A stretch of DNA of 59,970 nt, taken from the IMG/VR virus record IMGVR_UViG_3300044953_000493, positions 1 to 59,970 of that record, one strand, 5' to 3'. The notes below the pieces were generated by a model. It did no database searches. It was given only the letters and a program-made list of their open reading frames with translations, and was not told the origin of the DNA. Origin of the DNA: a virus. Below are positions 38,285 to 56,444 of this stretch, one piece after another. Position numbers and translations under genes: made by a program. The stretch's first letter is position 1; each line of letters begins with the position of its first letter.

Positions 38285-38309
38285 ACTATAGAGACAGTTT
38301 CAGTGGCTC
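38285..38309 (-). promoter_or_regulatory. GGGCCC/TATAGT element, copy 1 (degenerate box)
   Basis: Minus strand: GAGCCA box, CTGAAACTGT core, TATAGT at 38285-38290. Spacing box to -10 equals the other copies (13 bases). The box is the most diverged of the ten. Confidence 0.6.
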
Positions 38310-38319
38310 AGTAAGATTA

Positions 38320-38529
38320 TTAAAGACTCTCAAGAACTTCACGATAATCAATGAATTTAATACACCAACCGGTTGCAGATGTGATCTCTTCAATTAGATC
38401 ATCTTCGTCACATGCTTCCCAGATCTGTCCTAAAGTTTCATTCACAATTTCTTCTTGAAGTTGAGAAGAAATTGTACCAAAAGAATCCTCAAAATCAAAC
38501 TCAATGTTAGTAACTTGAAATTGCATCAT
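38320..38529 (-). CDS. 69-aa acidic conserved protein
   Basis: QFQVTNIEFDFEDSFG near the N-terminus and WEACDEDDLIEEITSATGWC plus IKFIDYREVL at the C-terminus match a small acidic family known to me from cyanophages. It overlaps the upstream gene as ATGA at 38526-38529. The frame has two successive ATG codons. Function unknown; pI very low. Confidence 0.78.
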   Translation of the reverse strand: MMQFQVTNIEFDFEDSFGTISSQLQEEIVNETLGQIWEACDEDDLIEEITSATGWCIKFIDYREVLESL

Positions 38530-38789
38530 TTGCCTAATAAACCTCTCTCACGCAATTCTCTATCAATACAATCGAAGATTTCACTATAAAGGTAATCATA
38601 ATCTTCCTCGATGCTGTTGAGAACTTCGAATGCAACTTCACGATTCACAGGTATCTTGATTTGCACTTTATAAGTGCAGACATCATCATTGGTGAAGATA
38701 AACGCAGCACAGGGAGCATCTTCCCCCTGATACTCAATTAACTGATTCACGCGATCGCGAAGATTTGCCAGAGTGTTGTTAGTTGTCAT
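38526..38789 (-). CDS. 87-aa hypothetical protein with duplicated start region
   Basis: Begins TTNNTLANLRDRVNQLIEYQ and continues with GEDAPCAAFIFTNDDVCTYK; soluble, acidic. A 25-bp tandem duplication (38765-38814) repeats its start codon and first codons. The upstream copy is out of frame and makes an 11-codon reading frame ending inside the second copy. ATG at 38789 is therefore the only one giving the full protein. Function unknown. Confidence 0.7.
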   Translation of the reverse strand: MTTNNTLANLRDRVNQLIEYQGEDAPCAAFIFTNDDVCTYKVQIKIPVNREVAFEVLNSIEEDYDYLYSEIFDCIDRELRERGLLGK

Positions 38790-38814
38790 TTGCCAGAGTG
38801 TTGTTAGTTGTCAT
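38765..38814 (-). repeat. 25-bp tandem duplication over a start codon
   Basis: Two identical adjacent 25-bp units (38765-38789 and 38790-38814), each containing the ATG and first codons of the 87-aa gene. Confidence 0.9.
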
Positions 38815-38824
38815 TGGATTTGTA

Positions 38825-39160
38825 TCATGCCAGACGCATTCCTGAGAAGAAAGGAATCGTGCCGTGATTCATGTTAACAAACCACTTACCTTTACGTTGG
38901 AAAATACCTTCATGAGGCAATCCAAAGGCACTCAGAATAGCATTGAGACGTGATTTGGTAGTCTGAGACTGCCAACCACCATCGAACAATTCGATCCAAG
39001 TTTCACCAATTCGAGCAATTAAATTACCATGCAAAAATACATCCACAACATTCGAACATGCAATCACTTCGGTATTAGCAACTTTGAGATCTTTGCCTGC
39101 TTTGATAGCAGCAATCATTTGAGATTCGATCTTACGCATGTTGGTTGATTGGTTGTTCAT
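38825..39160 (-). CDS. 111-aa conserved phage/cyanobacterial hypothetical protein
   Basis: RKIESQMIAAIKAGKDLKVA, then VFLHGNLIARIGETWIELFD, GGWQSQTTKSRLNAILSAFG and GKWFVNMNHGTIPFFSGMRL form a familiar compact family shared by phages and cyanobacteria. The first ATG abuts the GGGCCC element copy 2; Met8 (39139) is the alternative start if that element is a promoter. Function unknown. Confidence 0.75.
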   Translation of the reverse strand: MNNQSTNMRKIESQMIAAIKAGKDLKVANTEVIACSNVVDVFLHGNLIARIGETWIELFDGGWQSQTTKSRLNAILSAFGLPHEGIFQRKGKWFVNMNHGTIPFFSGMRLA

Positions 39161-39185
39161 ACTATAGGAACAGTTTCAGGGGCCC
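39161..39185 (-). promoter_or_regulatory. GGGCCC/TATAGT element, copy 2
   Basis: Minus strand GGGCCC (39180-39185), CTGAAACTGT core, TATAGT (39161-39166), immediately upstream of the 111-aa gene. Confidence 0.65.
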
Positions 39186-39237
39186 AGTACTATGACTGAA
39201 AGGCACTCAAAGTTGAGACAGAATGAAAGTATTCACC

Positions 39238-39315
39238 TGGTGGGGACAGTCGGACTCGAACCGACAAAGTTAAAGTTGGCGCGCCAGCTTCAACCAATTC
39301 CGCCAAGGTGCCCCC
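39238..39315 (-). tRNA. tRNA-like gene with unassignable anticodon (possibly decayed)
   Basis: 78 bases including an encoded CCA (39238-39240). A 7-bp acceptor stem (GGGGGCA with TGTCCCC, one G-U) and a perfect 5-bp T-stem with GTTCGAGTCC are clear, and the D-loop string GGCGGAATTGGTTGAAGC is Leu/Ser-like. In the anticodon region I find no 7-base loop with U33 on a good 5-bp stem; instead TGGCGCGCCA forms a palindrome, and the long variable arm expected of Leu/Ser tRNAs is missing. It could be a degenerate or recombined tRNA. It lies downstream of element copy 3. Confidence 0.6.
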
Positions 39316-39355
39316 ATGTGCCAGATGATCGCTGGGAGCATGAAATCAAACTCCC

Positions 39356-39380
39356 ACTATCGGGACACTTTCGGGGGCCC
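39356..39380 (-). promoter_or_regulatory. GGGCCC/GATAGT element, copy 3, before the tRNA-like gene
   Basis: Minus strand GGGCCC (39375-39380), CCGAAAGTGT core, GATAGT (39356-39361). It is followed by GGGAG/CTCCC arms and then the tRNA-like gene about 40 bases downstream. Confidence 0.65.
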
Positions 39381-39817
39381 TATTAGTATAAAGAACCTTA
39401 TATGGCCTTAAATTTATAGATACTAAAAAACCTTCGAATTACATCGATAATTTCAAAAGCACACAAGAAACTATTATCGGAATCCGAATTTTTTATATAA
39501 GATCTTATTAAAGTAAACTCACTCTTTATATATTTCCAAGTTGTTGAGACTTGACGATTTTATTGCGCCGGAGACCGCGTTCTAACTCCCTCTTTTTATA
39601 ACAAAAGTTTAAGTTTAATGATACCACGATGTATCACTCAACTCATTTGAATTTTAGAATCATTCAGTCTGAGTAACTTAATACTTATCATACAGGGAGT
39701 TCTTTTTATCCACTGTTAGAAGACTTATCTCACCGGGCAAAGCCGTCTGTTGTGCTCCTATGGGAAAGAACTATATAAACATTAAGCTTAAGTTTCTTTT
39801 CTGTGATTCTACGATTC

Positions 39818-39825
39818 TATTTATA
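39818..39825 (-). promoter_or_regulatory. T4-type late promoter, exact TATAAATA
   Basis: Exact TATAAATA on the minus strand directly after the stop of the 57-aa gene. No coding gene follows for more than 500 bases, so it would transcribe the non-coding region and the tRNA-like gene. Confidence 0.6.
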
Positions 39826-39829
39826 CAAT

Positions 39830-40003
39830 TTACCATCTTTCAGGCCGACTGAGATCCTCAATATATGCCTCACAATTTTCTGCAGGTTCTAATTCAAATA
39901 ACTTTTCCCAGTCTAATTGATGTGGATCAAAATCATTCAAAACATTAAGTTCTAATGTCACTCTATATCTTTGTTTTTGGGCTTGAGAATACGCAACAGA
40001 CAT
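39830..40003 (-). CDS. 57-aa conserved cyanophage protein
   Basis: YSQAQKQRYRVTLELNVLND, then FDPHQLDWEKLFELEPAENC and EAYIEDLSRPERW, match a small acidic family that I recall from cyanomyoviruses (RYRVT, NPHQIDWxKLF, YVEDLSRPERW). ATG at 40003 gives the family N-terminus; the open frame further upstream lies in the promoter. A sigma-70 promoter (40032-40060) lies 22 bases upstream. Function unknown. Confidence 0.75.
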   Translation of the reverse strand: MSVAYSQAQKQRYRVTLELNVLNDFDPHQLDWEKLFELEPAENCEAYIEDLSRPERW

Positions 40004-40031
40004 AATTGATGCTCCATTGATGTATGAGAAC

Positions 40032-40060
40032 ATGATAAGATATCTTGAGTTAATTGTCAA
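40032..40060 (-). promoter_or_regulatory. Sigma-70 promoter TTGACA-17-TATCAT
   Basis: Minus strand TTGACA (40055-40060), 17-bp spacer, TATCAT (40032-40037), driving the 57-aa gene. A CATAAATA late-type box lies just upstream (40074-40081). Confidence 0.7.
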
Positions 40061-40149
40061 GCATCCTTAAAGATATTTATGAAATTTTTGTGTTTTTGAA
40101 TGTGACTGTGAAATTTTGTAATTCTGGTGTCATGAGTTTTTCTGAGGCA

Positions 40150-40178
40150 TTGACATTTCAGCGAGTTTATGATATTAT
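40150..40178 (+). promoter_or_regulatory. Plus-strand sigma-70 promoter TTGACA-17-TATTAT
   Basis: TTGACA (40150-40155), 17-bp spacer, TATTAT (40173-40178) on the plus strand, pointing away from the minus-strand promoter at 40032-40060 and into the 38-bp repeats. No plus-strand gene follows, so a short regulatory or antisense RNA is possible. Confidence 0.5.
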
Positions 40179-40203
40179 GCGCGCAAAGATCACAAGAACT
40201 CAA

Positions 40204-40296
40204 GACATTTATAATACATTAAATCACTCAAGAACGCATAAGACATTTATAATACATTAAATCACTCAAGAACGCATAAGACATTTATAGTGCATT
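40204..40296. repeat. 38-bp tandem repeat, two full units and a partial third
   Basis: Units start at 40204, 40242 and 40280 (exact 38-bp period); the first two are identical and the third matches for about 17 bases with changes. Each unit contains TTATAATACATTAA. Not a CRISPR: units are directly adjacent without spacers. Confidence 0.9.
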
Positions 40297-40321
40297 AATT
40301 CTCAATAATATCACCTAATTG

Positions 40322-40349
40322 ATTCTCAATAATCAAACTTATTGAGAAT
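40322..40349. repeat. Inverted repeat, 11-bp arms with 6-base loop
   Basis: ATTCTCAATAA (40322-40332), loop TCAAAC, TTATTGAGAAT (40339-40349). The left arm is also repeated directly near 40299-40309. No T-run on either strand, so a protein-binding site or cruciform is as likely as a terminator. Confidence 0.7.
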
Positions 40350-40417
40350 GAGATTAACAACTCTTTTATATTAAATAATATATTAAAAAATAATATCATA
40401 TCAAAACAATATAAAAA

Positions 40418-40442
40418 AGAGAGGAATTTTGATTTCCTCTCT
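40418..40442 (-). terminator. Rho-independent terminator after the 80-aa gene
   Basis: Minus strand AGAGAGGAA, 7-base loop, TTCCTCTCT, then six T. A 9-bp perfect stem with a U-run, about 60 bases after the stop at 40501. Confidence 0.85.
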
Positions 40443-40500
40443 ATGATAAACAATCTCTTCAATGAAAATATAATGTTTATACTATAAAGTTTGACTCCAC

Positions 40501-40743
40501 TTAATAAGTTGAAATCCAGTCCAAATCTGCTAAATGATCTGCTACATCTTCCTTGAGATTGTTAAGATCAATCAATACATTCTCGATTGTAGATGATGTC
40601 CAACCGATTACAAATGGAGGATTATCATCACACTTTGCATCATCATGATAGTTCACTGATTTGCACTTTACAAGTACATCTTGCAGTGATTCAATGATAC
40701 AATCAAAACGATGTTGAATGTTCAAACGATGTTGAATGTTCAT
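40501..40743 (-). CDS. 80-aa hypothetical protein with duplicated N-terminus
   Basis: The N-terminus NIQHRLNIQHRFDCIIESLQ contains an in-frame 18-bp tandem duplication (NIQHR twice). The remainder (NPPFVIGWTSSTIENVLIDL, NNLKEDVADHLADLDWISTY) is acidic and soluble. It is followed by a strong terminator. Without the duplication the protein would start at the second NIQHR unit. Function unknown. Confidence 0.65.
   Translation of the reverse strand: MNIQHRLNIQHRFDCIIESLQDVLVKCKSVNYHDDAKCDDNPPFVIGWTSSTIENVLIDLNNLKEDVADHLADLDWISTY
40706..40741 (-). repeat. 18-bp tandem duplication at a start codon
   Basis: Two identical 18-bp units (40706-40723, 40724-40741), encoding the repeated NIQHR. Confidence 0.9.
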
Positions 40744-40812
40744 TTGAATTTCAGATGAAGAATTGAGTGTAAGACATGAGAGGTAACGATCATTGGTTTG
40801 TGTAAATACTTA

Positions 40813-41115
40813 TCAACTTGGCACATTCTCATCCAAAAGTTCAGGATAATCATTTTCAATTTCAGTAATCAGTTGTGCGTCAGTATATCCGGAAAGATTA
40901 TCTTCTAAATAATATCCTACAATACGCATCAAATCTTTAATGTCCATATCATCTAATATACTATCAATATCAGTATATGAGGAACAATCGAAAAAATTTT
41001 CTTCTAAATAATCTCCTACAATACGCATCAAATCTTTAATGTCCATATCATCTAATATACGATCAATATAAGCATCAAGAATTGTTTGTCGATTGAAATG
41101 AGTGTGTGTGTTCAT
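40813..41115 (-). CDS. 100-aa acidic protein with internal 33-aa duplication
   Basis: Begins NTHTHFNRQTILDAYIDRIL and carries ILDDMDIKDLMRIVG twice with a 33-residue period; the second copy is followed by YTDAQLITEIENDYPELLDE. ATG at 41115 is preferred because the longer frame upstream overlaps the 55-aa gene at 41144-41311. The duplication is recent: DNA copies differ at only a few positions. The single-copy ancestor would be about 67 aa, a length typical of the small acidic proteins here. Function unknown. Confidence 0.68.
   Translation of the reverse strand: MNTHTHFNRQTILDAYIDRILDDMDIKDLMRIVGDYLEENFFDCSSYTDIDSILDDMDIKDLMRIVGYYLEDNLSGYTDAQLITEIENDYPELLDENVPS
40902..41099 (-). repeat. 99-bp tandem duplication within a gene
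   Basis: A 99-bp period aligns 40902-41000 with 41001-41099; about 75 bases at the start of each unit are nearly identical (CTTCTAAATAAT...). The frame is kept. Confidence 0.85.
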
Positions 41116-41143
41116 GATTGAAAAAGTTGTTGATTGTTTTGAT

Positions 41144-41311
41144 TTATCGAGAAGGAAAGTTTGTACAAATAGCATCACAAATAATCCGAGTGAGATCATT
41201 CATTTGATCGGGATATTTATTCTTCCAAGTATCATAAAAGAAACTTTCAACTATACATTCAACATCATTCATTAACTGTTCACGAGCAGTTAACATATCA
41301 AGTTTGTTCAT
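41144..41311 (-). CDS. 55-aa conserved small protein
   Basis: NKLDMLTAREQLMNDVECIV, ESFFYDTWKNKYPDQMNDLT and RIICDAICTNFPSR. The pattern (EQLMNxVECIVESF, WxxxYPxQxxDLxxxxCDxxCxxFP) is one I recall from small cyanophage proteins. Two conserved Cys near the C-terminus. It lies 36 bases downstream of element copy 4, with a clear 5' leader, which supports that element as a promoter. Function unknown. Confidence 0.72.
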   Translation of the reverse strand: MNKLDMLTAREQLMNDVECIVESFFYDTWKNKYPDQMNDLTRIICDAICTNFPSR

Positions 41312-41347
41312 TGTTTTTGAATTGAAAGAGTTGTTGATTGTTTTGAT

Positions 41348-41372
41348 ACTATAGGGACACTTTCAGGGGCCC
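41348..41372 (-). promoter_or_regulatory. GGGCCC/TATAGT element, copy 4
   Basis: Minus strand GGGCCC (41367-41372), CTGAAAGTGT core, TATAGT (41348-41353). The 55-aa gene starts about 36 bases downstream, so here the element cannot overlap coding sequence. Confidence 0.7.
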
Positions 41373-41446
41373 AAAGAAAAAGAAGATTTAAGAGACAAAT
41401 AATCAAATATATTCATCTAGGCATAAACCTTCATAAAACTCATTCT

Positions 41447-41866
41447 CTAGGGACATTTATTTGCATATAAATAACCTCCAGACCAATCTGCTCTGCGCAG
41501 TAGTTCTTCTCTTGAATAATCATCTAAAAGATTGTAACGAACACCTTTTGCAGGTGCATGATATGATGCAGGTTTGAAACAATCACCAGTAATCATATTC
41601 ACAAACATATGAACTGATTTTGAACCACCAAAATTTGATATGTGAAAAATTCTGAAATATTTTTTACCTTTTTCAAATACATATTCATCAACACCTTCAC
41701 CTTCAGATAAGGCATCAATTTGTTGTTGATGATATTCAACATTTTTTCCCTTTTCAATCAAGTTTCGATGCGATTGAATTGCATAAGTTTGATAACGAAT
41801 ACGTAAAACCTCACAAAGAAGTTTTACATATTTCAAAACAGTTTGAGATTGTGTAGTTTGAGTCAT
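41447..41866 (-). CDS. 139-aa conserved phage protein
   Basis: Contains VFEKGKKYFRIFHISNFGGS, KSVHMFVNMITGDCFKPASY, HAPAKGVRYNLLDDYSREEL and a C-terminal DWSGGYLYANKCP. The order KYFRI, SVHxFVN..TGD.xKxAxxxAPxKGVRxNL, GGYLY is a compact family found in many phages (from memory). Function unknown, no catalytic residues obvious. It lies three bases after the 55-aa gene in the same operon. Confidence 0.78.
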   Translation of the reverse strand: MTQTTQSQTVLKYVKLLCEVLRIRYQTYAIQSHRNLIEKGKNVEYHQQQIDALSEGEGVDEYVFEKGKKYFRIFHISNFGGSKSVHMFVNMITGDCFKPASYHAPAKGVRYNLLDDYSREELLRRADWSGGYLYANKCP

Positions 41867-41868
41867 AA

Positions 41869-42036
41869 TCAGCGGCCAAAATCAACGGGAATGAATAACC
41901 AAATAGCACGATCTGTGCCCATTGTAAATTGATTATCCCAGATAAAATGCGTTGCTTCCTGATTACTCAGATTGCAATGATTCATCAGATGATTGACTGC
42001 TTCCTTGAAGGATGTAAAGCGAAAAGTGTTGTTCAT
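41869..42036 (-). CDS. 55-aa hypothetical protein
   Basis: NNTFRFTSFKEAVNHLMNHC, NLSNQEATHFIWDNQFTMGT and DRAIWLFIPVDFGR. Soluble, with a helical N-terminal half. Its ATG overlaps the stop of the 39-aa gene (ATGA) and its stop lies two bases before the next ATG. Function unknown. Confidence 0.65.
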   Translation of the reverse strand: MNNTFRFTSFKEAVNHLMNHCNLSNQEATHFIWDNQFTMGTDRAIWLFIPVDFGR

Positions 42037-42152
42037 TTGAGTTTCAGTTTGAGTGATTGAAGCACTTGTTTGCGAGATTTAAGTTTTCCTTTACAAATTC
42101 CTTTTGTATTCTTTTGTTTTCCAGAGTTGTGTTGCCAGTTTGGTGTTCTCAT
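42033..42152 (-). CDS. 39-aa very basic small protein
   Basis: RTPNWQHNSGKQKNTKGICK followed by GKLKSRKQVLQSLKLKLK: about one third Lys/Arg, one Cys. It overlaps both neighbours through ATGA junctions (42149-42152, 42033-42036), which makes translation plausible despite the small size. Possibly nucleic-acid binding; no family recognised. Confidence 0.55.
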   Translation of the reverse strand: MRTPNWQHNSGKQKNTKGICKGKLKSRKQVLQSLKLKLK

Positions 42153-42403
42153 CGTGAATAACTCTTTGCGATTTGTTTCATAACATTACGTGCCGATAAC
42201 ATAAACTGATAGGGAGTCGATAACATAAACTGATAGGGAGTCACATTTTTAGAATCATAAGAGTCGTTGAAGATGTTCGCAAAAACATCAGTTTGATTAA
42301 AAGTGTTCACAATCAGAGCACAAGCATCATAGAGTGCTGCCTTGTGCTCCTCTTCAGACTTGAAAGAAAATTCAGCCATTGAGGAAAAACGATTGGAGTT
42401 CAT
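42149..42403 (-). CDS. 84-aa hypothetical protein with 8-aa internal duplication
   Basis: AEFSFKSEEEHKAALYDACA and LIVNTFNQTDVFANIFNDSY, then TPYQFMLS twice in tandem. The first ATG abuts element copy 5; Met9 (42379, before AEFSF) is the alternative start. First gene of a four-gene operon with ATGA-type junctions. Function unknown. Confidence 0.65.
   Translation of the reverse strand: MNSNRFSSMAEFSFKSEEEHKAALYDACALIVNTFNQTDVFANIFNDSYDSKNVTPYQFMLSTPYQFMLSARNVMKQIAKSYSR
42194..42241 (-). repeat. 24-bp tandem duplication within a gene
   Basis: Two identical 24-bp units (42194-42217, 42218-42241), in frame, encoding TPYQFMLS twice. Confidence 0.9.
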
Positions 42404-42428
42404 ACTCTTGAGACACTTTCAGGGGCCC
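42404..42428 (-). promoter_or_regulatory. GGGCCC element, copy 5 (altered -10)
   Basis: Minus strand GGGCCC (42423-42428) and CTGAAAGTGT core are perfect, but the -10 position reads AAGAGT instead of TATAGT. Confidence 0.55.
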
Positions 42429-42441
42429 AGTTTTCATAAAC

Positions 42442-43940: not shown

Positions 43941-43983
43941 GAGTGAAAACTGAGTATGAGTTAAAGCTAAATGGTATTTGGCA

Positions 43984-44673: not shown

Positions 44674-45867
44674 TCATCTTTTAATGGTAGAAATTGCAGG
44701 TTGTCCATCACGAAATACCGTATCAACAACTGCCTGCACTTTGCGTGAGGTACTGATACCAACATTGTCATACACAGGTACACAAACCAGACCAAACTTT
44801 TTGGTTTCGTCACCCAAACGAATCACTCGTCCAATGCTCTGACTGAATCCAATGTAGTCCATATTTCGCATAAACAATACTGCTTCCAATCCAGACACAT
44901 TGATACCCTCAGACAGAATGCTATGATGTATCACAACGAAACGCTTACTGCTATTCTTACCCCAAGCATTGAGAGTATCGAAGAATACTTCACGATTCAC
45001 TTTTTTACCATCAATGATTGCACCAGTCTTGGCAGTGATATACATCCAAGAGTAATCAAGTTCTTGTAATCGAGCACAGAAATTTGATTGAGACACAAGG
45101 CCCATAATCTGCTTGGTAGAGCGAGCACAAATCAAAATCTTATTGAGATTCTGATCATAAATCGTTTCCATCAGATTGTCAGCATCACGTTGAAAAATCA
45201 TCTGACGATCTGAAATCATAGGTAGTTGCTTGATGACAACTTTAGGAGGTAATATGTAACCCTGTTTGACTAACTCAGGAGCAGGAACTTGACAAATAAC
45301 CTGATCATAAACCTCAGAAAGATTCATTCCTGGTTTAGATATTGTGTTGGAATGTTTCGGCGTTGCAGTAAAGAAATAACAACGATTCGCATAAGCACTG
45401 AAGTGTTCAGTTGCAGGAAAAAAGTGACTCTGAACGCTGTTATGTGCCTCGTCAAAGTAGATCGTATTCACATCAATCTCGGCATTCACCAGACGCGAAA
45501 GAGAGTGATAGGTAGTGAATAATAACTTATGATGAGATTTATGACTCTCTACCCAAGCACGAATTTCTGTGGATCGAGTAGATGATTGATGATGAGTTTC
45601 ACCGCTGTGAATGTGAAATACTTGTGCATGAGTGATAAACTCTAAAAACTCACTGGATAACTGTTCTGCAAGCAAAATACGCGGTGCCACAATCACAATC
45701 GTCTGTGGAGTTTCTGATTGAAACTCTCTGATACAATCTGTAATCATTGTGAGAGTTTTACCGCCACCAGTTGGTACAATCAACTGACCTCTATTGTGTT
45801 TCTGCATGGCATCAACACCACGAATCTGATGAGGACGCAGTTGAATGTTCATTGTGTTGTGATTCAT
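44674..45867 (-). CDS. SF2 (DEAD/DEAH-type) helicase
   Basis: 397 aa. Walker A is VPTGGGKT (residues 31-38), motif II IYFDEAH (136-142), motif III YFFTATP (164-170), then ILSEGINVSGLEAVLFMR and the arginine-finger motif VI FSQSIGRVIRLGD (341-353). RPHQIRGVDAM is the Q-motif-like start. Length and order fit the compact type-III-restriction/UvsW-like helicases common in cyanomyoviruses; T4 UvsW itself has an extra N-terminal domain that is missing here. ATG at 45867 abuts element copy 6; Met6 (45852) is the alternative start. Likely role: replication, recombination or branch migration. Confidence 0.9.
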   Translation of the reverse strand: MNHNTMNIQLRPHQIRGVDAMQKHNRGQLIVPTGGGKTLTMITDCIREFQSETPQTIVIVAPRILLAEQLSSEFLEFITHAQVFHIHSGETHHQSSTRSTEIRAWVESHKSHHKLLFTTYHSLSRLVNAEIDVNTIYFDEAHNSVQSHFFPATEHFSAYANRCYFFTATPKHSNTISKPGMNLSEVYDQVICQVPAPELVKQGYILPPKVVIKQLPMISDRQMIFQRDADNLMETIYDQNLNKILICARSTKQIMGLVSQSNFCARLQELDYSWMYITAKTGAIIDGKKVNREVFFDTLNAWGKNSSKRFVVIHHSILSEGINVSGLEAVLFMRNMDYIGFSQSIGRVIRLGDETKKFGLVCVPVYDNVGISTSRKVQAVVDTVFRDGQPAISTIKR

Positions 45868-45892
45868 ACTATAAGAACACTTTTGAGGGCCC
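45868..45892 (-). promoter_or_regulatory. GGGCCC/TATAGT element, copy 6
   Basis: Minus strand GGGCCC (45887-45892), TCAAAAGTGT core, TATAGT (45868-45873), directly before the helicase. Confidence 0.65.
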
Positions 45893-45908
45893 AGAGTTGA
45901 TTCAATCT

Positions 45909-46106
45909 TCACGAGTTCGAATAACTTAAGATCTTAATTTGTTCTCGAATCTGAAGCATTGCGGTACGACTATATCCTACTGCATAAGGATAAGATAGTT
46001 CTGTCAGTGTAGATTTAGAATCTACATTGTTGCACACATTAATTGCACTCTCAAGTCCCTCAATTAGAGTCTCCAGAGTTGTAATCGGAACATTCACAGT
46101 TTTCAT
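45909..46106 (-). CDS. 65-aa conserved cyanophage protein
   Basis: KTVNVPITTLETLIEGLESA, INVCNNVDSKSTLTELSYPY and AVGYSRTAMLQIREQIKILS. The pattern NVPxTTLExLIExLE...SYPYAxGYSRxAM is a small family I recall from cyanomyoviruses. ATG lies about 18 bases downstream of the -10 of element copy 7, a proper leader. Function unknown; two-helix protein likely. Confidence 0.78.
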   Translation of the reverse strand: MKTVNVPITTLETLIEGLESAINVCNNVDSKSTLTELSYPYAVGYSRTAMLQIREQIKILSYSNS

Positions 46107-46123: not shown

Positions 46124-46148
46124 ACTATAGGGACACTTTCAAGGGCCT
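46124..46148 (-). promoter_or_regulatory. GGGCCC/TATAGT element, copy 7
   Basis: Minus strand AGGCCC box (46143-46148), TTGAAAGTGT core, TATAGT (46124-46129), upstream of the 65-aa gene. Confidence 0.65.
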
Positions 46149-46158: not shown

Positions 46159-46737
46159 TTAGGGTTGATAATATGATGCGTCTCTTTCTTTACCTCTGAT
46201 AATATCCCCATGAAGTTTTTTACCTGCTCTTATCATTCTCTTTTTTTCGTCTCTAGTATATTCATTTTTAGTTGTTCTTTCAATCCTTCCTTCACCTTTT
46301 GGTTTTTTTGGTTTCCTTTTTGATAGGATTTCAGTTGCTTGTTTTTCTAATTTTTCTAAATCTTTTGGTTTTGGTTGTTGAACTGTTGGTACAGATTCAC
46401 CTGCTTTTCGTGCAGCAATTCTTGCTAATGCTGCTTTTTTTCTTTCTTCTTTTGCTGCCGCAGCTGCTGCTGCTTTTACATCAGTAGAACCACGCTCTTG
46501 TTCTGGTTGTTGAACTCTTGTTTCTGTTGAACGTGTAGTGCCAATATCAGAGCGTGGTTTATATGGTTTTGCAGGCAATCTTGTACCTCCTGGCCCTCTT
46601 CTTGTTCTTCTTCTTTCAGGGTCAGTTTTTCTTCTTTCTGGAGCAATTCTTCCCCCTTCACCTGTACGAATAATCTGTGCCCCAGACATAAAAGAGGCAT
46701 CATATGCTTCTAAACAGAATTGAGAAAAAGACTTCAT
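46159..46737 (-). CDS. Basic Ala/Lys-rich protein with capsid-targeting-like N-terminus
   Basis: 192 aa, extremely basic (ERRKTDPERRRTRRGPGGTR; RKPKKPKGEGRIERTTKNEY) with an Ala run (VKAAAAAAAKEERKKAALAR). The N-terminus MKSFSQFCLEAYDA resembles the T4 internal-protein capsid targeting sequence MKTYQEFIAEA. A late-type promoter (AATAAATA) lies 22 bases upstream, unlike its early-type neighbours. This fits a DNA-associated internal head protein, which is inference. The exact gp21 cleavage consensus (L/I-x-E) is not obvious. Alternative: a non-virion DNA-binding protein. Confidence 0.72.
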   Translation of the reverse strand: MKSFSQFCLEAYDASFMSGAQIIRTGEGGRIAPERRKTDPERRRTRRGPGGTRLPAKPYKPRSDIGTTRSTETRVQQPEQERGSTDVKAAAAAAAKEERKKAALARIAARKAGESVPTVQQPKPKDLEKLEKQATEILSKRKPKKPKGEGRIERTTKNEYTRDEKKRMIRAGKKLHGDIIRGKERDASYYQP

Positions 46738-47098: not shown

Positions 47099-47257
47099 TC
47101 AATAATCAATGTTGGATTTAAGATATTCATTGATATCGAAATTTTCATCTTGTTCGATAGACTCATTCATTTCTTCAACAAAATCAAAAGAAGAAAATTC
47201 TTCAATCGAAAGATCATCAAAATCGTCCATTTTGAATTCCAAGGTTAATGTTTTCAT
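47099..47257 (-). CDS. 52-aa very acidic protein
   Basis: KTLTLEFKMDDFDDLSIEEF, SSFDFVEEMNESIEQDENFD and INEYLKSNIDY, with about 18 Asp/Glu residues. The ATG abuts element copy 8; Met10 (before DDFDD) is the alternative start. Strong acidity suggests DNA mimicry or a partner-binding antagonist, but that is speculation. Function unknown. Confidence 0.65.
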   Translation of the reverse strand: MKTLTLEFKMDDFDDLSIEEFSSFDFVEEMNESIEQDENFDINEYLKSNIDY

Positions 47258-47280
47258 AATAAGAACACTTTCAGGGGCCC
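47256..47280 (-). promoter_or_regulatory. GGGCCC/TATTAT element, copy 8
   Basis: Minus strand GGGCCC (47275-47280), CTGAAAGTGT core, TATTAT (47256-47261) before the acidic 52-aa gene. Confidence 0.65.
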
Positions 47281-48499: not shown

Positions 48500-48916
48500 T
48501 CATACAACTTTTTTAAGTGCTTCACAGGGTATTTTAGTCAGTTCAGGTTTTTTTAACTTATTAAATTGATACATATTGTAGCATACCCATTCATCTTTTT
48601 TTGTAAATACATAAGCATATTCTTCTCCATCAGACAAATACTCTTGAAGAGAATTATCTAAATGAGGAGGACAATCTTCACCACGAGCAGAATAATAGAG
48701 TGGGCCAGTTATAGACAGAGTTTCATTTTGCCAACCAGTATTTGTCCACAAAGAACTAATGTCACCACCATCAATTAGTTCAGAAACTTTATTACGAGTG
48801 CTGAAATGTTCTTTGAGTTTGACACCATTGTGCTCAGGATAACCGTCATAATGACAATATATTGAGAGAATGGAACCATTCTCGAGTTCAAGACCGATGC
48901 GTGAGCGAGTTGCCAT
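48500..48916 (-). CDS. 138-aa conserved phage protein
   Basis: ATRSRIGLELENGSILSIYC followed by HYDGYPEHNGVKLKEHFSTR and KVSELIDGGDISSLWT is the opening of a family widespread in phages (MATRSRIGxExxxGxxxSxYCHxDGYP). Ends with a segment YAYVFTKKDEWVCYNMYQFN. Function unknown. The ATG follows the -10 of element copy 9 by about 18 bases, a proper leader, which supports the promoter reading of that element. Confidence 0.85.
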   Translation of the reverse strand: MATRSRIGLELENGSILSIYCHYDGYPEHNGVKLKEHFSTRNKVSELIDGGDISSLWTNTGWQNETLSITGPLYYSARGEDCPPHLDNSLQEYLSDGEEYAYVFTKKDEWVCYNMYQFNKLKKPELTKIPCEALKKVV

Positions 48917-48933: not shown

Positions 48934-48958
48934 ACTATAAGGACACTTTCAGGGGCCC
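48934..48958 (-). promoter_or_regulatory. GGGCCC/TATAGT element, copy 9
   Basis: Minus strand GGGCCC (48953-48958), CTGAAAGTGT core, TATAGT (48934-48939), with a normal leader before the 138-aa gene. Confidence 0.7.
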
Positions 48959-48964
48959 AAAAAA

Positions 48965-50662: not shown

Positions 50663-50692
50663 ATGATTCAGAGTTTTAGTATATTTAGGTTT

Positions 50693-51151: not shown

Positions 51152-51152
51152 T

Positions 51153-51867: not shown

Positions 51868-51942
51868 TAGTTTGCCTCCAAAGTTTGTTTTTGAACATAA
51901 CGATTGTCTGTTGAAGTTATTCACTGAATGATGTTAACATGG

Positions 51943-52116: not shown

Positions 52117-52122
52117 TGTAAA

Positions 52123-52299: not shown

Positions 52300-52322
52300 T
52301 GAGTTTGTTTGTATATGAGAGT

Positions 52323-52368
52323 ATTATAGGGCAAAACCACTCCCTTATGAGAAGTAGTGTGCCGGTTC
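52323..52368 (-). promoter_or_regulatory. GGCACA-N26-CCCTATAAT element, copy A
   Basis: Minus strand GAACCGGCACA (52358-52368), 26 bases, CCC, TATAAT (52323-52328), then 23 bases to the ATG of the 58-aa gene. The layout is repeated at 53247-53292. No TTGACA-like -35 at normal spacing. Confidence 0.5.
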
Positions 52369-52436
52369 GTCAAATGTCTTTTTACTTGTTTTTTCGATAA
52401 ACGCAGTTTATTCAGAATCCTGATATTATTCTACAT

Positions 52437-52598
52437 TCATGAATAATTCAAGGTATTGATTTCTCGGTGTTTAACAATTTCCTCAAAACATTCACCTAAA
52501 GTTTCACAATATCCAGAGAACTTATCAATATTCTCTGGTCCATCTTCCAGAGCCCAGATGTAATTTTTAGTCTCTGTTTGTTCTATTTCAATTTTCAT
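52437..52598 (-). CDS. 53-aa conserved small protein
   Basis: KIEIEQTETKNYIWALEDGP, ENIDKFSGYCETLGECFEEI and VKHREINTLNYS. The pattern YxWxxxxGPENIxxxSGYxExLGxCFEEIxxxR resembles a small family in cyanophages. Acidic. Function unknown. Confidence 0.72.
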   Translation of the reverse strand: MKIEIEQTETKNYIWALEDGPENIDKFSGYCETLGECFEEIVKHREINTLNYS

Positions 52599-52609
52599 AG
52601 TAATTTACC

Positions 52610-53044
52610 TCAAATTTTATAATCAACATTGTGAAGAATTTCTTCAGTCATTGCCTCCACTTCTTCATCAGTATAATTTGGATTATCAGGATCTTGAAGA
52701 CGTGAAAGTTTAGCAGACAAATCACGAATCTTTGAAATTAAGTTCCAGTTTTCTTTTTCTAATTCTATTTCACGACGATTTAAATTGTACTCCTTTATGA
52801 CTTTCTTCATCAATTCTGAACTTCTAAAGTCATTAAAAGCCAAAGAACAAGCACCAGACATAATACTTTGTTCATTATGTCCGATAAAAAGAAGAAACTT
52901 CTCAAATGCTCTGAACATTTGAGTTGCTGTCAAATCATTACAATCAAACTCATATACAAAGTTTTCATTTGGAAGAAAATCATCAGTATTTTTGAAGTCA
53001 GAAGTTGCTTCATATTTTAGAGTTGCTTTGGCAGTATAAGTCAT
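52610..53044 (-). CDS. 144-aa conserved cyanophage protein
   Basis: ENFVYEFDCNDLTATQMFRA, FEKFLLFIGHNEQSIMSGAC, SLAFNDFRSSELMKKVIKEY and a C-terminal coiled coil (REIELEKENWNLISKIRDLS). Related proteins occur in cyanomyoviruses (from memory). Overlaps the upstream gene by four bases (ATGA). Function unknown. Confidence 0.73.
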   Translation of the reverse strand: MTYTAKATLKYEATSDFKNTDDFLPNENFVYEFDCNDLTATQMFRAFEKFLLFIGHNEQSIMSGACSLAFNDFRSSELMKKVIKEYNLNRREIELEKENWNLISKIRDLSAKLSRLQDPDNPNYTDEEVEAMTEEILHNVDYKI

Positions 53045-53223
53045 GAAAAATCCTCATCATCAAAAGTAAAGTATTCGTGAAGAGACTCCATTACCTGCTC
53101 TTCAATATAATCACAGATAACTTCTTTACTTGGGTTTTCATTATGCTTAAAGGCACGAGAATAGCCTCTTTTTACACCTTGTTCAACTGCCATCTCTATG
53201 ATAACACGAATTTTCGGTTTCAT
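53041..53223 (-). CDS. 60-aa conserved small protein
   Basis: KPKIRVIIEMAVEQGVKRGY, SRAFKHNENPSKEVICDYIE and EQVMESLHEYFTFDDEDFS. The VIxEMAxEQGVxxGxxxAxKHxxxPxxExI pattern is familiar from cyanophages. First gene behind element copy B, with a 23-base leader. Function unknown. Confidence 0.75.
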   Translation of the reverse strand: MKPKIRVIIEMAVEQGVKRGYSRAFKHNENPSKEVICDYIEEQVMESLHEYFTFDDEDFS

Positions 53224-53246
53224 TTGTATTATGAATTTACCCTCTT

Positions 53247-53292
53247 ATTATAGGGCATTGATTTGAATTTGGAAAGAGGCTTGTGCCAGTTC
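53247..53292 (-). promoter_or_regulatory. GGCACA-N26-CCCTATAAT element, copy B
   Basis: Minus strand GAACTGGCACA (53282-53292), 26 bases, CCC, TATAAT (53247-53252), 23 bases to the ATG at 53223. Same spacing as copy A at 52323-52368. Confidence 0.5.
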
Positions 53293-53303
53293 CTAAAGTA
53301 TTC

Positions 53304-53489
53304 TTATCTTCTTTTCTTTCTATCAATCACTTCTACAGATTTACAATATGGAGATTGAATCCATCGAGAATAAACTTCATCATACCATTCCACAATTTCT
53401 ACCTTACCACTTTCCATATGCAGTTTATACTTATGTCGATCATAAGACTTATCAGAAGTTTGTGTAAAAAATTTAGGTAATCCAGTCAT
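53304..53489 (-). CDS. 61-aa hypothetical protein
   Basis: TGLPKFFTQTSDKSYDRHKY, KLHMESGKVEIVEWYDEVYS and RWIQSPYCKSVEVIDRKKRR. Small beta-rich basic protein. ATGA overlap with the upstream gene. Function unknown. Confidence 0.68.
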   Translation of the reverse strand: MTGLPKFFTQTSDKSYDRHKYKLHMESGKVEIVEWYDEVYSRWIQSPYCKSVEVIDRKKRR

Positions 53490-53686
53490 AAAGATGCTAA
53501 TTCCTCTGCAAGTTGTAATAAATCAGATTTGTCTAATACTACCAAATCATTTTGTGCATTATAAGATGTAACTTGTTCTGCAACAAGTTTGAGAACCGAT
53601 GATAATAGTTGTTCTTCTGTCATATTCTCATCAGAATTACGAATACTCCAAACAGAATTTATAAAATTTTGTGCTCTTTCAGTCAT
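53486..53686 (-). CDS. 66-aa hypothetical protein
   Basis: TERAQNFINSVWSIRNSDEN, MTEEQLLSSVLKLVAEQVTS and NDLVVLDKSDLLQLAEELAS. The second ATG (53686) is preferred over the one at 53692 because AAAGAGA is then at a proper distance. Helical and acidic. Transcribed from the sigma-70 promoter at 53745-53773. Function unknown. Confidence 0.68.
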   Translation of the reverse strand: MTERAQNFINSVWSIRNSDENMTEEQLLSSVLKLVAEQVTSYNAQNDLVVLDKSDLLQLAEELASL

Positions 53687-53744
53687 TATCATTCTCTTTT
53701 GTGTTTGAATTCAATTGGATTAGACATTGATTTTTTACTTTTAT

Positions 53745-53773
53745 AGTATAAAGCACCTCAACTCAAAAGTCAA
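53745..53773 (-). promoter_or_regulatory. Sigma-70 promoter TTGACT-17-TATACT inside a hairpin
   Basis: Minus strand TTGACT (53768-53773), 17-bp spacer, TATACT (53745-53750). The spacer and -35 lie within an inverted repeat AAGCACCT (53773-53780 and 53751-53758), which may be an operator or a weak terminator of the gene upstream. Confidence 0.6.
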
Positions 53774-53802
53774 GGTGCTTGTGGACTGTTTATGAAGTGT
53801 CT

Positions 53803-53970
53803 TTAGGTAATTAAGAGTCTTCTACAAATTCGTTTGCAAACTTGTGCAGTATCATTACACTCTGTAAGACACTCAAAATAATCATTTACCTCATTGTTTT
53901 CTGTTTCTCGAAGACGACTTTCATTTTGATATGAAAATGCAAGTTCATTGAATGAAATTAAATTGTGCAT
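53803..53970 (-). CDS. 55-aa Cys-containing conserved small protein
   Basis: HNLISFNELAFSYQNESRLR, ETENNEVNDYFECLTECNDT and AQVCKRICRRLLIT. Four Cys arranged CxxxC and CxxxC near the C-terminus suggest a helical hairpin with disulphides or metal. The YQNES...DYFECxxECxxxxxxCKxxCRRxL pattern resembles cyanophage proteins I recall. GGAGAG lies five bases before the ATG. Function unknown. Confidence 0.73.
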   Translation of the reverse strand: MHNLISFNELAFSYQNESRLRETENNEVNDYFECLTECNDTAQVCKRICRRLLIT

Positions 53971-54069
53971 AATACTCTCCTAAAGTAAATGAAATTTTTT
54001 AACGAAACCTTTTTTAGTTCATAGGCATCTTAAATTCTAATTATATTTATGAGGATATCAACACATTCT

Positions 54070-54183
54070 TCATATAAATTCATTTACTTTCTGTTGAATT
54101 TTTTCTATGATTTTTTCATATTTTCTGATTGATAATCTTTTTAAAATGGAATTTATCATCCAAAAGGGATGATGAATGAACAT
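54070..54183 (-). pseudogene. Truncated duplicate of the 69-aa membrane-protein gene at 54607-54816
   Basis: The frame reads FKLIIVNLQRAKWMFIHHPF, WMINSILKRLSIRKYEKIIE, KIQQKVNEFI, nearly the same as the C-terminal half of the protein at 54607-54816 (FKLMIVNLQRAKWMFIHHPF). A stop sits directly upstream of the shared part, so the hydrophobic N-terminal half is missing. The first in-frame ATG is at 54183 (37 codons). About 104 bp (54123-54226) align with 54624-54727. The tail beyond the shared part differs and may preserve the original C-terminus. Confidence 0.65.
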
Positions 54184-54228
54184 CCATTTTGCTCTTTGAA
54201 GATTGACGATTATCAGTTTGAAAGATAT

Positions 54229-54483
54229 TTATTTATTTTTTGGATTTTCTTTTGGTTTTTCCAAATCCTTTTTTTCTTTTAATTCTACCTCCACCGTTTC
54301 TTCGGTAATTTCTTCTTCAGTTGGAAAAGTAACTCCAGTTTGCTCAAGATACTCAATTGCACCTTGAACTTTAAGTGACATATCACGTTTTAAATTTAAT
54401 TGTGATGTCAGTGCATTAATATCTGCATTGAGTTGTTTTTGTTGTTCAACTAATTGTGAAAAGTGTTTTTGTGCTTCAGTCAT
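54229..54483 (-). CDS. 84-aa coiled-coil protein, relative of 58783-58986
   Basis: TEAQKHFSQLVEQQKQLNAD, INALTSQLNLKRDMSLKVQG and AIEYLEQTGVTFPTEEEITE, ending in a Lys/Glu-rich tail. The pattern QxxLxxxIxxLxxxLxxKxxxxLKxQGxxEYLxxxGV is shared with the 67-aa protein in the fibre locus at 58783-58986. A consensus sigma-70 promoter (54507-54535) lies 24 bases upstream, so this copy is probably early. Role unknown; oligomerisation through the coil is likely. Confidence 0.72.
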   Translation of the reverse strand: MTEAQKHFSQLVEQQKQLNADINALTSQLNLKRDMSLKVQGAIEYLEQTGVTFPTEEEITEETVEVELKEKKDLEKPKENPKNK

Positions 54484-54506
54484 AGTACGTAAATGTTTTC
54501 AAGATG

Positions 54507-54535
54507 ATTATAGAAAATAAAAGTTTAAATGTCAA
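54507..54535 (-). promoter_or_regulatory. Sigma-70 promoter TTGACA-17-TATAAT
   Basis: Perfect consensus on the minus strand: TTGACA (54530-54535), 17-bp spacer, TATAAT (54507-54512), 24 bases upstream of the 84-aa coiled-coil gene. Confidence 0.85.
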
Positions 54536-54563
54536 GAGCTCCAAGGAATTCCTGATGCTCTTG
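54533..54563. promoter_or_regulatory. Nested palindromes overlapping the -35 box, candidate operator
   Basis: CAAGAGC (54533-54539) and GCTCTTG (54557-54563) form an inverted repeat around the 10-bp palindrome AGGAATTCCT (54544-54553). The left arm overlaps the -35 TTGACA of the strong promoter. Confidence 0.45.
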
Positions 54564-54606
54564 TGGGTGCTTTTTATTCTTCAATTAAATATTTTATATT
54601 TTTTTG

Positions 54607-54816
54607 TTATGAATTAATTTTATTTCTGATTGATAATCTTTTTGAAATGGGATTTGTTAGCCAAAAAGGATGATGAATGAACATCCATTTTGCTCTTTGA
54701 AGATTGACAATCATTAGTTTGAAGGAGAGTCCAACATAGATTGCAACATTTTCGTCAATCACCATCAAATAAAAAATAATTAAAAATGGTATGAAGAAAA
54801 GATAATAGACTAACAT
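54607..54816 (-). CDS. 69-aa membrane protein
   Basis: LVYYLFFIPFLIIFYLMVID is a hydrophobic N-terminal segment, then ENVAIYVGLSFKLMIVNLQR and AKWMFIHHPFWLTNPISKRL. The IDENVxxxxxLxxKxxxVxxxRxxxxxxHHPxxxxTNPxxxxxL pattern is familiar from cyanophage small membrane proteins. Its C-terminal half is duplicated at 54070-54226. Function unknown. Confidence 0.72.
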   Translation of the reverse strand: MLVYYLFFIPFLIIFYLMVIDENVAIYVGLSFKLMIVNLQRAKWMFIHHPFWLTNPISKRLSIRNKINS

Positions 54817-54838
54817 TTTCTTACTAAAAATGAAGAGG

Positions 54839-55039
54839 TTAATTACTATTTAAGAGATTCCAATGCTCATCTTCTGTTTCAGACACCCAGAAATCGTGAT
54901 TTCCTGATATTGAACTTACAAAAAGTTTACCATTTTTCTTCTCTTTTACTTTACAAGAATGCAAACAACGCATTTCATTTACAAAGTATTCTGATGCCTC
55001 AGAAGATCTTGGTTTGACATAGATAAATTCTGATTTCAT
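54839..55039 (-). CDS. 66-aa hypothetical protein
   Basis: KSEFIYVKPRSSEASEYFVN, EMRCLHSCKVKEKKNGKLFV and SSISGNHDFWVSETEDEHWN. Compact alpha/beta protein with two Cys. A TATAAT (55064-55069) lies just after the terminator of the ParB-like gene and may act as its -10. Function unknown. Confidence 0.68.
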   Translation of the reverse strand: MKSEFIYVKPRSSEASEYFVNEMRCLHSCKVKEKKNGKLFVSSISGNHDFWVSETEDEHWNLLNSN

Positions 55040-55074
55040 TGAAAGTTTGTGACTTTGTGACTATTATAATAAAA

Positions 55075-55098
55075 AAGGGAGTCAATGAAGACTCCCTT
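55075..55098 (-). terminator. Rho-independent terminator after the ParB-like gene
   Basis: Minus strand AAGGGAGTC, 6-base loop, GACTCCCTT followed by a T-run, 19 bases after the stop at 55117. Confidence 0.9.
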
Positions 55099-55116
55099 GT
55101 GACAGTATTAAAGGTG

Positions 55117-56289
55117 TCAGGGTTGAGAAAGAGTTAGACAATCACCATCAGGGTCAAACTTGATGTTTTTGCCGTATACATCGACAAGACCCTCTTCGGT
55201 AGGACGACCTTTATCTTTAGGATTTGGTTTGGTATATTGACCCATGAATCCAGCAAGTTTCACAGGAAAATTTTCCTCATCCAAAGAACTTGACTGTCCA
55301 TCACCAACAATGTTATTGGCAAATTGTACAAACAATTCCTTTATATCATTGAAATCTTGAATATAATCCTTACGGAATTCTTCAAGATCATCAACACGAT
55401 TAGGAGAATAACCAATAATCCATGCAGGAATTCCTAGACGCGTAGCATGTGCAATACAACGAGCCCAAGTTGATTTGTTATCACCATTCCCTGCACAATA
55501 AATGATGCAACCTTGCTCAATCAACTCTTTGTCAGTGCGCTCTTCAATACCTTGCTTAGCAAATCCATGATTCTTAATGAATCCATTCAAAGTATTGTCC
55601 CCATGACCAGTGGAGTTGTAAGTACGGAAGTTAGGAAATACCTGACAGGTATTGTAGCAAGAATTTTTGATGCGTCGACGAACTTTTGCAGTCTTATCAG
55701 AAGCAATCAAATCAACAAAACTGTCGATAGAAGATTGATCAGAAGGAACAACACCTGCATCAACAGCGTTGCAGACTTCTTTTTGATAATCGCGCCAAGT
55801 CTGACTCAGTTGCGGATTGCTGTGGTGATTTGATTGGTTGCGAGCAACAATCTCCCAGTAGCGACTTTCGAAGTGATAAATATCGAATAAATAGCATTCC
55901 TGCCCAATACGATCAAGGGCTTCCCTACGATTATATCCAGCGAGACCTTTCAATTTAACTTTGCTAGCATCAGAATCATCAAAACATGTGATAGGTGGCG
56001 TTGCGTCACAACGATAACCAACGGTTTCGTAGTTATTTGTCAGGTTATTAACATGATCCGAATCATTATTTTTATCACGCGGTTGCTCCGATTCATCGTA
56101 TCGAATAAAATTAATAGGAATCAGATAACGACCCAGATGCTTAGATCCTTGATAATCCATCGGAGGAGCTTGTTTAATACTTTGTCGAAGAATTTGCTCA
56201 TCCAATCCCAGAGGATTGCTACAAGTCTTCAGTATTTTTGCCCAAACCATCAAGGTCTCGACGGAAACATAGTGTGTTTTTGGTTGCAT
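55117..56289 (-). CDS. ParB/sulfiredoxin-like domain protein
   Basis: 390 aa. Residues about 95-160 (VKLKGLAGYNRREALDRIGQ, ECYLFDIYHFESRYWEIVAR, NQSNHHSNPQ) resemble the ParB-N/Srx fold: GxxRxxAL followed by an AR-x-QSN segment comparable to the ParB Arg box. The C-terminal half (DKELIEQGCIIYCAGNGDNK, STWARCIAHATRLGIPAWII) is an alpha/beta domain I cannot name. The frame extends upstream to a TTG at 56370, but the consensus promoter (56362-56390) lies there, so ATG at 56289 is chosen. Possible roles: DNA binding, nucleotide hydrolysis or DNA modification. Confidence 0.62.
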   Translation of the reverse strand: MQPKTHYVSVETLMVWAKILKTCSNPLGLDEQILRQSIKQAPPMDYQGSKHLGRYLIPINFIRYDESEQPRDKNNDSDHVNNLTNNYETVGYRCDATPPITCFDDSDASKVKLKGLAGYNRREALDRIGQECYLFDIYHFESRYWEIVARNQSNHHSNPQLSQTWRDYQKEVCNAVDAGVVPSDQSSIDSFVDLIASDKTAKVRRRIKNSCYNTCQVFPNFRTYNSTGHGDNTLNGFIKNHGFAKQGIEERTDKELIEQGCIIYCAGNGDNKSTWARCIAHATRLGIPAWIIGYSPNRVDDLEEFRKDYIQDFNDIKELFVQFANNIVGDGQSSSLDEENFPVKLAGFMGQYTKPNPKDKGRPTEEGLVDVYGKNIKFDPDGDCLTLSQP

Positions 56290-56361
56290 TGAAGTTACAT
56301 AAAGTAAAGTTTCAAAGTGACTCAACAAAAGAACTAAGTTCTCTTTGTTTGAATCAAGGGT

Positions 56362-56390
56362 ATCATACAAGAATTTAGAACTCTCGTCAA
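56362..56390 (-). promoter_or_regulatory. Sigma-70 promoter TTGACG-17-TATGAT
   Basis: Minus strand TTGACG (56385-56390), 17-bp spacer, TATGAT (56362-56367), giving a leader of about 65 bases before the ParB-like ATG. Confidence 0.65.
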
Positions 56391-56419
56391 CCCTCTGGTG
56401 AGAAGTAATTGTCTCTCAC

Positions 56420-56444
56420 ATTACTAGAACACTTTAAGGGGCCC
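56420..56444 (-). promoter_or_regulatory. GGGCCC element, copy 10
   Basis: Minus strand GGGCCC (56439-56444), CTTAAAGTGT core, then TTCTAGTAAT. It lies about 30 bases upstream of the sigma-70 -35 of the ParB-like gene, so that gene may have both promoter types. Confidence 0.5.

Follow-up and report, generated by a model that had tools for sequence, protein, structure and literature searches.

The window analysed here is the whole 59,970-base IMG/VR record IMGVR_UViG_3300044953_000493, a fragment of a T4-like cyanomyovirus. Its minus strand carries relatives of gp15, gp14, gp8, gp7, gp6 and gp25, then a small-gene region with a helicase, which corresponds to 42-61 kb of S-SM2 and 36-53 kb of SynMITS9220M01. 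By gp6 tree, the window groups with S-SM2, Bellamy, SynMITS9220M01 and P-TIM68 (support 100/100). Our subject is a 25-bp element which occurs ten times in the small-gene region and appears to be a lineage-specific promoter-like element of one group of cyanobacterial T4-like phages, with a 7-base "password" standing before a fixed core. A putative internal head protein encoded in the same region is the candidate reader of that password. The ten copies, with the open reading frames (ORFs) or RNAs that they precede, are as follows.

38285-38309, minus strand: element copy 1, GAGCCACTGAAACTGTCTCTATAGT; adjoins the ATG of ORF 38000-38284
39161-39185, minus strand: element copy 2; adjoins the ATG of ORF 38825-39160
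39356-39380, minus strand: element copy 3, GATAGT; zero gap to a hairpin GGGAG..CTCCC, then a tRNA-like sequence
41348-41372, minus strand: element copy 4, consensus; A/C-rich leader of 36 nt to the ATG
42404-42428, minus strand: element copy 5, AAGAGT variant; adjoins the ATG of ORF 42149-42403
45868-45892, minus strand: element copy 6, 5' of the helicase gene (ORF 44674-45912); adjoining ATG, with another ATG in the same frame 15 nt further
46124-46148, minus strand: element copy 7, AGGCCC; 17-nt leader to the ATG of ORF 45909-46106; starts just past the stop codon of the internal head protein gene
47256-47280, minus strand: element copy 8, TATTAT, its last T shared with the ATG of ORF 47099-47257; heads a gene group that includes the internal head protein gene
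48934-48958, minus strand: element copy 9, consensus; 17-nt leader to the ATG of ORF 48500-48916
56420-56444, minus strand: element copy 10, AGTAAT; zero gap to a hairpin of 7 pairs, GTGAGAG..TTCTCAC, the first part of a predicted structured leader

All ten copies lie on the minus strand exactly where the initial annotation had placed them: with up to three mismatches allowed, the window gives 10 matches and 100 dinucleotide shuffles give 0. The proposed spellings of box and hexamer held for most sites, the exceptions being 38285 (GAGCCA, not GGGCCC) and 46124 (AGGCCC), and the final six bases are TATAGT at six sites and GATAGT, AAGAGT, TATTAT and AGTAAT at one site each. Restriction to the accessory region and absence from the structural genes had also been claimed, and a position weight matrix scan found no further good site on either strand, the only other weak match scoring 11.2 against 31-42 for the true sites. 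Every copy is on the coding strand and 5' of a gene or structured RNA, and at four of the ten (38285, 39161, 42404 and 45868) an ATG adjoins TATAGT or its variant with zero gap. The general idea of a phage-specific promoter-like element limited to the accessory or early region is supported. Its assignment to the middle class is not supported, and an early class seems indicated: the region matches the early small-gene region of related phages.

Beyond the window, the core AAAGTGTYYYTATAGT with RTRAGCAC is found in S-SM2, SynMITS9220M01, P-TIM68 (diverged) and at hundreds of IMG/VR sites. Clear copies number 10 in S-SM2 and 11 in SynMITS9220M01, all on the coding strand in the early small-gene region upstream of gp25/gp6, and P-TIM68 has 13 copies of the diverged form GTTAGTTACC-TCT-AAATTGAYNYATTAAT, in which ATTAAT takes the place of TATAGT. 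An exact core scan found at least 120 IMG/VR stretches with the core and no match among the GTDB genomes scanned. Strand is strictly kept: the 433 strict-core matches fall in 183 loci, and none of the 93 multi-match loci is of mixed strand.

A "box" in this context is the 7 bp upstream of AAAG, and unlike the core it is not fixed. We found about 20 types in all (including GGGGTCG, ACTCACC, TGAAGCC and CCGGCCC), for example a GGGCCC type in the window, GGGGTCG in S-SM2 and ACTCACC in SynMITS9220M01. Box identity is 95.5% within a contig and 53.9% between contigs, and the highest value from 1000 permutations of sites among contigs was 58.4%. One gene, GC71 (encoding a protein with a KxDG motif), is preceded by different boxes in different phages, and the box therefore changes in concert across the whole region. 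In a few contigs a single site departs from the common box, in line with recombination. L022, L031, L032, L047, L137 and L174 are single contigs that mix two box types, likely through recombination between phages of different boxes; they are useful for seeing whether foreign-box promoters decay.

GGGCCC is thus one of about 20 interchangeable lineage-specific boxes and not the fixed MotA-box analogue that it had been taken for. The MotA box is A/T A/T TGCTT T/C A, centred near -30, and neither the GGGCCC box of the window nor any of the other types, about 20, reads TGCTT. Neither motA nor asiA is annotated in S-SM2 or SynMITS9220M01 (annotation only, with no profile search made). Marine T4-like cyanophages lack MotA/AsiA (PMC5780444). 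The GGGGTCG-box sites have a sigma54-like GG-N10-GC spacing, which we rejected as an explanation because it fails for ACTCACC, AGTAACC and other boxes. To our knowledge, cyanobacteria do not have sigma54.

In the model drawn from the initial annotation, TATAGT is a sigma70-type -10, with a MotA-like box near -30 to -35 and an RNA start 6-8 nt after TATAGT. We assessed the RNA start with 274 non-redundant sites. An ATG directly follows TATAGT in 122 of them, and at 113 of those 122 the frame stays open for at least 30 codons. Where an adjoining ATG is followed by another within 45 nt, the two share a frame in 81 of 92 cases (p 1.5e-27), and at sites that have no adjoining ATG the phase is much less biased (61:43:35). 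The triplet after TATAGT favours ATG and GTA and avoids GTG (Fisher 3e-34).

Several points favour an ordinary sigma70 promoter: TATAGT fits TAnnnT, positions 6-7 after it are a conserved C-A, in most genes an ATG comes 15-21 nt past TATAGT, and seven of ten S-SM2 elements start no more than 6 nt past the previous stop codon, where upstream read-through could explain part of the reading-frame signal. However, at 32 of the 122 sites a long ORF has no in-frame ATG among its first 15 codons other than the adjoining one. GC71 (MKNTHLEHPED...) keeps an identical start in Bellamy and P-SSM2, both of which lack the motif, and in P-SSM2 its ATG lies 6 nt past a true TATAAT (TATAAT-AAGAGT-ATGAAAAAC). 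Boxed sites also include hexamers with G or T as second base (AGTAGT, ATTAGT), which would be unusual for a -10. In the structured RNAs that follow the element (families A and B, and several simple hairpins), the outermost base of the stem coincides with the first base past TATAGT, even in copies with different but complementary stems. When all sites are taken together, stems are weakly enriched by position (10 at offset 0, with a mean of about 5), so the stem argument rests on the structured-RNA families.

Because of the used ATG that abuts TATAGT, the stems that start there and the GC71 start after TATAAT in P-SSM2, we think that RNA probably begins at the purine after TATAGT, or has its 5' end just before that base, and not 6-8 nt later. 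This start would move the box from about -30 to about -26 to -20. We consider the sigma70-type promoter improbable.

A phage-coded activator that co-occurs with the motif had been envisaged, and a protein with that distribution does exist. It was picked by gene-content comparison, i.e., from the S-SM2-unique genes common to SynMITS9220M01, which left one protein, SSM2_065 of S-SM2; among the genes compared, none of the others tracks the motif in the examined phages. Its counterpart in the window is the following.

46159-46737, minus strand: candidate box reader, a 192-aa basic protein with N-terminus MKSFSQFCLEAYD (T4-type capsid-targeting) and a C-terminal helix (residues 162-181) covarying with the box

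By tblastn, the SSM2_065 protein is found in S-SM2, SynMITS9220M01, P-TIM68 and the single-cell viruses AG-345-O18 and AG-345-E15, with a partial match in S-B05 and two S-B05 relatives. The motif or a variant is present in every examined phage with the protein (S-B05's two relatives left out of this count). The protein is absent by tblastn from Syn9, Bellamy, S-SRM01, S-SSM7, P-HM2, S-SM1 and P-SSM2, and the early regions of these seven phages hold 0 coding-strand element sites. Bellamy is the informative case, as it is nested in the motif clade by gp6 (100/100) yet has neither protein nor motif. When 80 IMG/VR loci were fetched by the protein alone, 74 held the motif, with 214 sites on the protein's strand and one on the opposite strand.

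The protein's C-terminus also changes with the box. We compared 100 non-redundant proteins, taking S-SM2 residues 142-193 (about 50 residues) as the C-terminal part, which correlates with the box at r=0.559, against r=0.153 for the rest (N-terminal). The partial correlation of C-terminus with box is 0.561, which 0 of 2000 permutations reached (maximum 0.123), and a correlation taken in sliding windows rises abruptly at the C-terminus. Permutations of the Mantel type model phylogeny incompletely; its control is provided by the N-terminal part and by seven control genes from the same loci. These genes, including the adjacent GC1185 and the element-adjoining GC71, gave 0.015-0.177, against r=0.54 for the C-terminus. 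Because the element often directly follows the partner gene, we repeated the analysis after dropping sites within 300 nt of that gene, and the covariation was 0.427. In our view this strongly indicates that the C-terminus either recognises the box or is linked to whatever does.

This covariation also bears on an alternative in which the element acts in RNA, as a 5' untranslated region or intercistronic processing or translation signal within longer early transcripts, with no promoter involved. In many places the element is flanked immediately by a stop codon and a start codon, and it has no conserved upstream -10, as such a signal might. However, it also precedes structured RNAs and the tRNA-like sequence, the box covaries with the basic head protein and not with any RNA partner seen, and palindrome-type relatives (described below) have clear TATAAT promoters at the equivalent place. 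By eye, GTGT could pair with GCAC inside the element, and we rejected this hairpin since GCGT sites mostly retain GCAC, i.e., the partner does not change consistently. An RNA-level signal is in our view very improbable.

The elements could alternatively be promoters of a phage-coded single-subunit T7-like RNA polymerase, as YYYTATAG resembles the T7-family core CACTATAG and the element forms one contiguous 25-bp unit up to the start site, in which the upstream bases differ by lineage. We find this barely credible: complete S-SM2, SynMITS9220M01 and P-TIM68 give no RNA_pol PF00940 match, with a P-SSP7 control at 2.7e-69 (the window itself is a fragment), and the 192-aa box-tracking protein is far too small for a polymerase.

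The partner has features of a virion protein. It is rich in Lys/Arg, and its N-terminal consensus over 50 sequences, MKTFxQFxxEAYD, fits the capsid-targeting form MK-T/S-F/Y-x-x-F-x-x-E-A, which we take to be that of T4. A tripeptide L/I/V/M/F-x-E (an L/I-x-E type cleavage site) occurs within the first residues of 85 of the 100 proteins. T4 internal proteins have a conserved capsid-targeting sequence (PMC3012670). A late-promoter-like TATAAATA, with no more than one mismatch, precedes 58 of 94 partner genes, mostly at -34 to -30 from the ATG (19.3 in shuffles, 12 on the reverse strand), and the partner gene is also downstream of an early-type element. Given the capsid-targeting-like N-terminus and this late-promoter-like signal, the protein is probably made late, packed in the head and injected.

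Our preferred explanation, to which we give a probability of roughly 55%, is that the repeats are lineage-specific early promoters whose box is read by an injected head protein that directs host RNA polymerase. The repeats would serve one clade of T4-like cyanomyoviruses, in its early small-gene region. Each would consist of a 7-bp box (about -26 to -20), the near-invariant core AAAGTGTYYY (-16 to -7) and TATAGT (-6 to -1). RNA would start at the purine following TATAGT, giving transcripts that are leaderless (AUG at +1) or have A/C-rich leaders of 15-40 nt. The small basic internal head protein would be made late, packed via its T4-type targeting sequence and injected with the DNA; its C-terminal part would read the box and, on its own phage's boxes, the protein would bring host RNA polymerase to early genes that lack a usable -10/-35. 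The steps that we infer from sequence are packaging in the head, injection with the DNA, binding of the protein to the box itself, an activating and not a repressing effect, and reliance on host polymerase. That this is a capsid-carried, sequence-specific transcription factor whose C-terminus and 7-bp boxes change together between lineages, with near-leaderless early mRNAs and early genes readable only by their own injected protein, strikes us as an even bet.

The main rival is that this late-made internal protein is a repressor on its own boxes, which would shut early genes late, silence incoming DNA and confer superinfection immunity towards phages that share its box. Selection to escape this immunity would then drive the diversity of boxes, and the sites are likened to the dispersed, oriented stoperators of L5. 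A repressor accounts for the covariation equally well, since boxes diversifying in concert with the C-terminus are the expected outcome of immunity selection, and it suits the late-promoter-like signal before the gene and the many dispersed sites of the same orientation. However, in every phage the box is at a fixed distance from a long invariant core and a predicted RNA start, and that core has no recognisable host -35/-10 able to work unaided. Bellamy lacks protein and motif together, whereas losing a repressor alone needs no loss of promoters. We therefore regard repression as unlikely, if a serious contender.

Several points weigh against the injected-activator explanation. Six of the 80 protein-bearing loci show no site by the pattern used, and a few loci have a second box type. 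The partner's predicted fold is mostly low-confidence (AlphaFold predicted template modelling score, pTM, 0.23), with only the C-terminal helix confident, and comparison with Pfam, PHROGs and PDB gave nothing convincing, the N-terminal part having no known domain. The covariation shows recognition at most, not activation. The conserved C-A (C 0.66, A 0.80) is a remaining sign for a classical -10, and an ordinary -10 whose start lies 7 nt further would likewise agree with the TATAGT hexamer and its distance to the C-A. A start directly after TATAGT puts TGTYYY in the -12 to -7 slot, which is unlike any sigma70 -10.

Two structured RNA families were seen beside the element or in related phages. 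The first has the core GGTTCAGGTGTAAGCGATTCCC and covarying terminal stems, e.g., GTGAGGGA/TCCCTCAC and TTGAGAGA/TCTCTCAA. The second has the core TTGTACGGTTTACCGAG in three of its four members and a terminal stem such as GAGAGACAGTTACAGGT/ACCTGTAATGTCTCTC; some phages have the present element before it, and P-SSM2 has a TATAAT promoter there. For the structured RNAs, including the first family in the scanned sources, Rfam matched nothing at its gathering thresholds. Their members are as follows.

Family with core GGTTCAGGTGTAAGCGATTCCC: L084:9340-9515, L085, L104, L179:152-280, L208 (P-SSM2), L214:23841-24020, L215:14499-14680
Second structured RNA family: L127:4908-5110, L179:2510-2665, L214:29931-30130, L208 near 5800-6030 (P-SSM2)

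The tRNA-like sequence behind copy 3 (window 39239-39318, minus strand) reads GGGGGCACC...TGTCCCCACCA, with the anticodon arm seemingly replaced by TGGCGCGCCA; it is not called by ARAGORN and has no tRNA match in Rfam. Elsewhere on the minus strand, the structural region encodes two very large proteins, one of 4045 aa that is gp7-like (20850-32987) and one of 2492 aa matching phrog_358, function not known (4319-11797), as well as a subtilase-domain protein (16576-19263).

For T4-like cyanophages, which start their early programme without MotA/AsiA, this work defines a promoter element, names a protein partner and makes a prediction at the level of residues for the cultured phages S-SM2, P-TIM68 and SynMITS9220M01. 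The more interesting part lies outside the initial annotation: variable boxes apparently matched to a virion-type protein. If the proposal is true, the first transcription factor of very abundant marine viruses comes inside the virion, and its lineage-specific recognition bears on superinfection, inter-phage recombination and orthogonal promoter tools. The upstream boxes of phage promoters can turn over fully between relatives while the core stays fixed, and single-motif searches therefore miss such promoters.

The present element is one of at least three early-region designs. Many early-region genes of S-SSM7, P-SSM2, S-SRM01 and P-HM2 have at their start a TATAAT with a palindrome GTGCCAGTTnAnnAACTGGCACA about 30 nt upstream of it (forward copies number 14 in S-SSM7 and 12 in P-SSM2). 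Syn9, S-SM1 and Bellamy have a CTATAAGAGTCAAAGG-type element in the early region, and that of Syn9 is without the present element. The third early-region repeat, with the sequence GTGTATnnTATAAGAGTCAAAGG, is common to Syn9, S-SM1 and Bellamy, though gp6 places Bellamy with S-SM2, and the promoter system therefore seems to have been swapped in Bellamy. Doron et al. (2016, ISME J) reportedly described an early-gene regulatory element in Syn9 which is said to be conserved in T4-like cyanophages and to occupy the same genome region as the present element. The palindrome GTGCCAGTTnAnnAACTGGCACA is possibly that published Syn9-type element.

Among better-known systems, T4 middle promoters (MotA/AsiA sigma appropriation) likewise place a phage-specific box before phage genes and use a phage-coded protein in reading it. 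Here, however, the box varies by lineage and is nearer the predicted start, there is no canonical -10 at the expected distance, and the partner looks packaged. T4 Alt is injected with the DNA and alters host RNA polymerase, and the partner resembles Alt and the T4 internal head proteins in its MKTFxxFxxEA N-terminus, like a capsid-targeting sequence, and its late-promoter-like upstream signal. We know of no T4 internal protein that reads a specific DNA sequence, whereas here the C-terminus covaries with a promoter box. N4-type virion RNA polymerase also serves early promoters with a protein that enters with the DNA, but there the injected protein is the polymerase and here the candidate is a basic protein of about 190 aa. 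Finally, the stoperators of mycobacteriophage L5 are many dispersed, oriented sites matched to the phage repressor, and the present sites are similar in being dispersed, oriented and of lineage-specific sequence matched to a putative phage DNA-binding protein. Unlike stoperators, they are joined directly to gene starts and to a conserved core, and the protein matched to them resembles a virion component of lytic phages.

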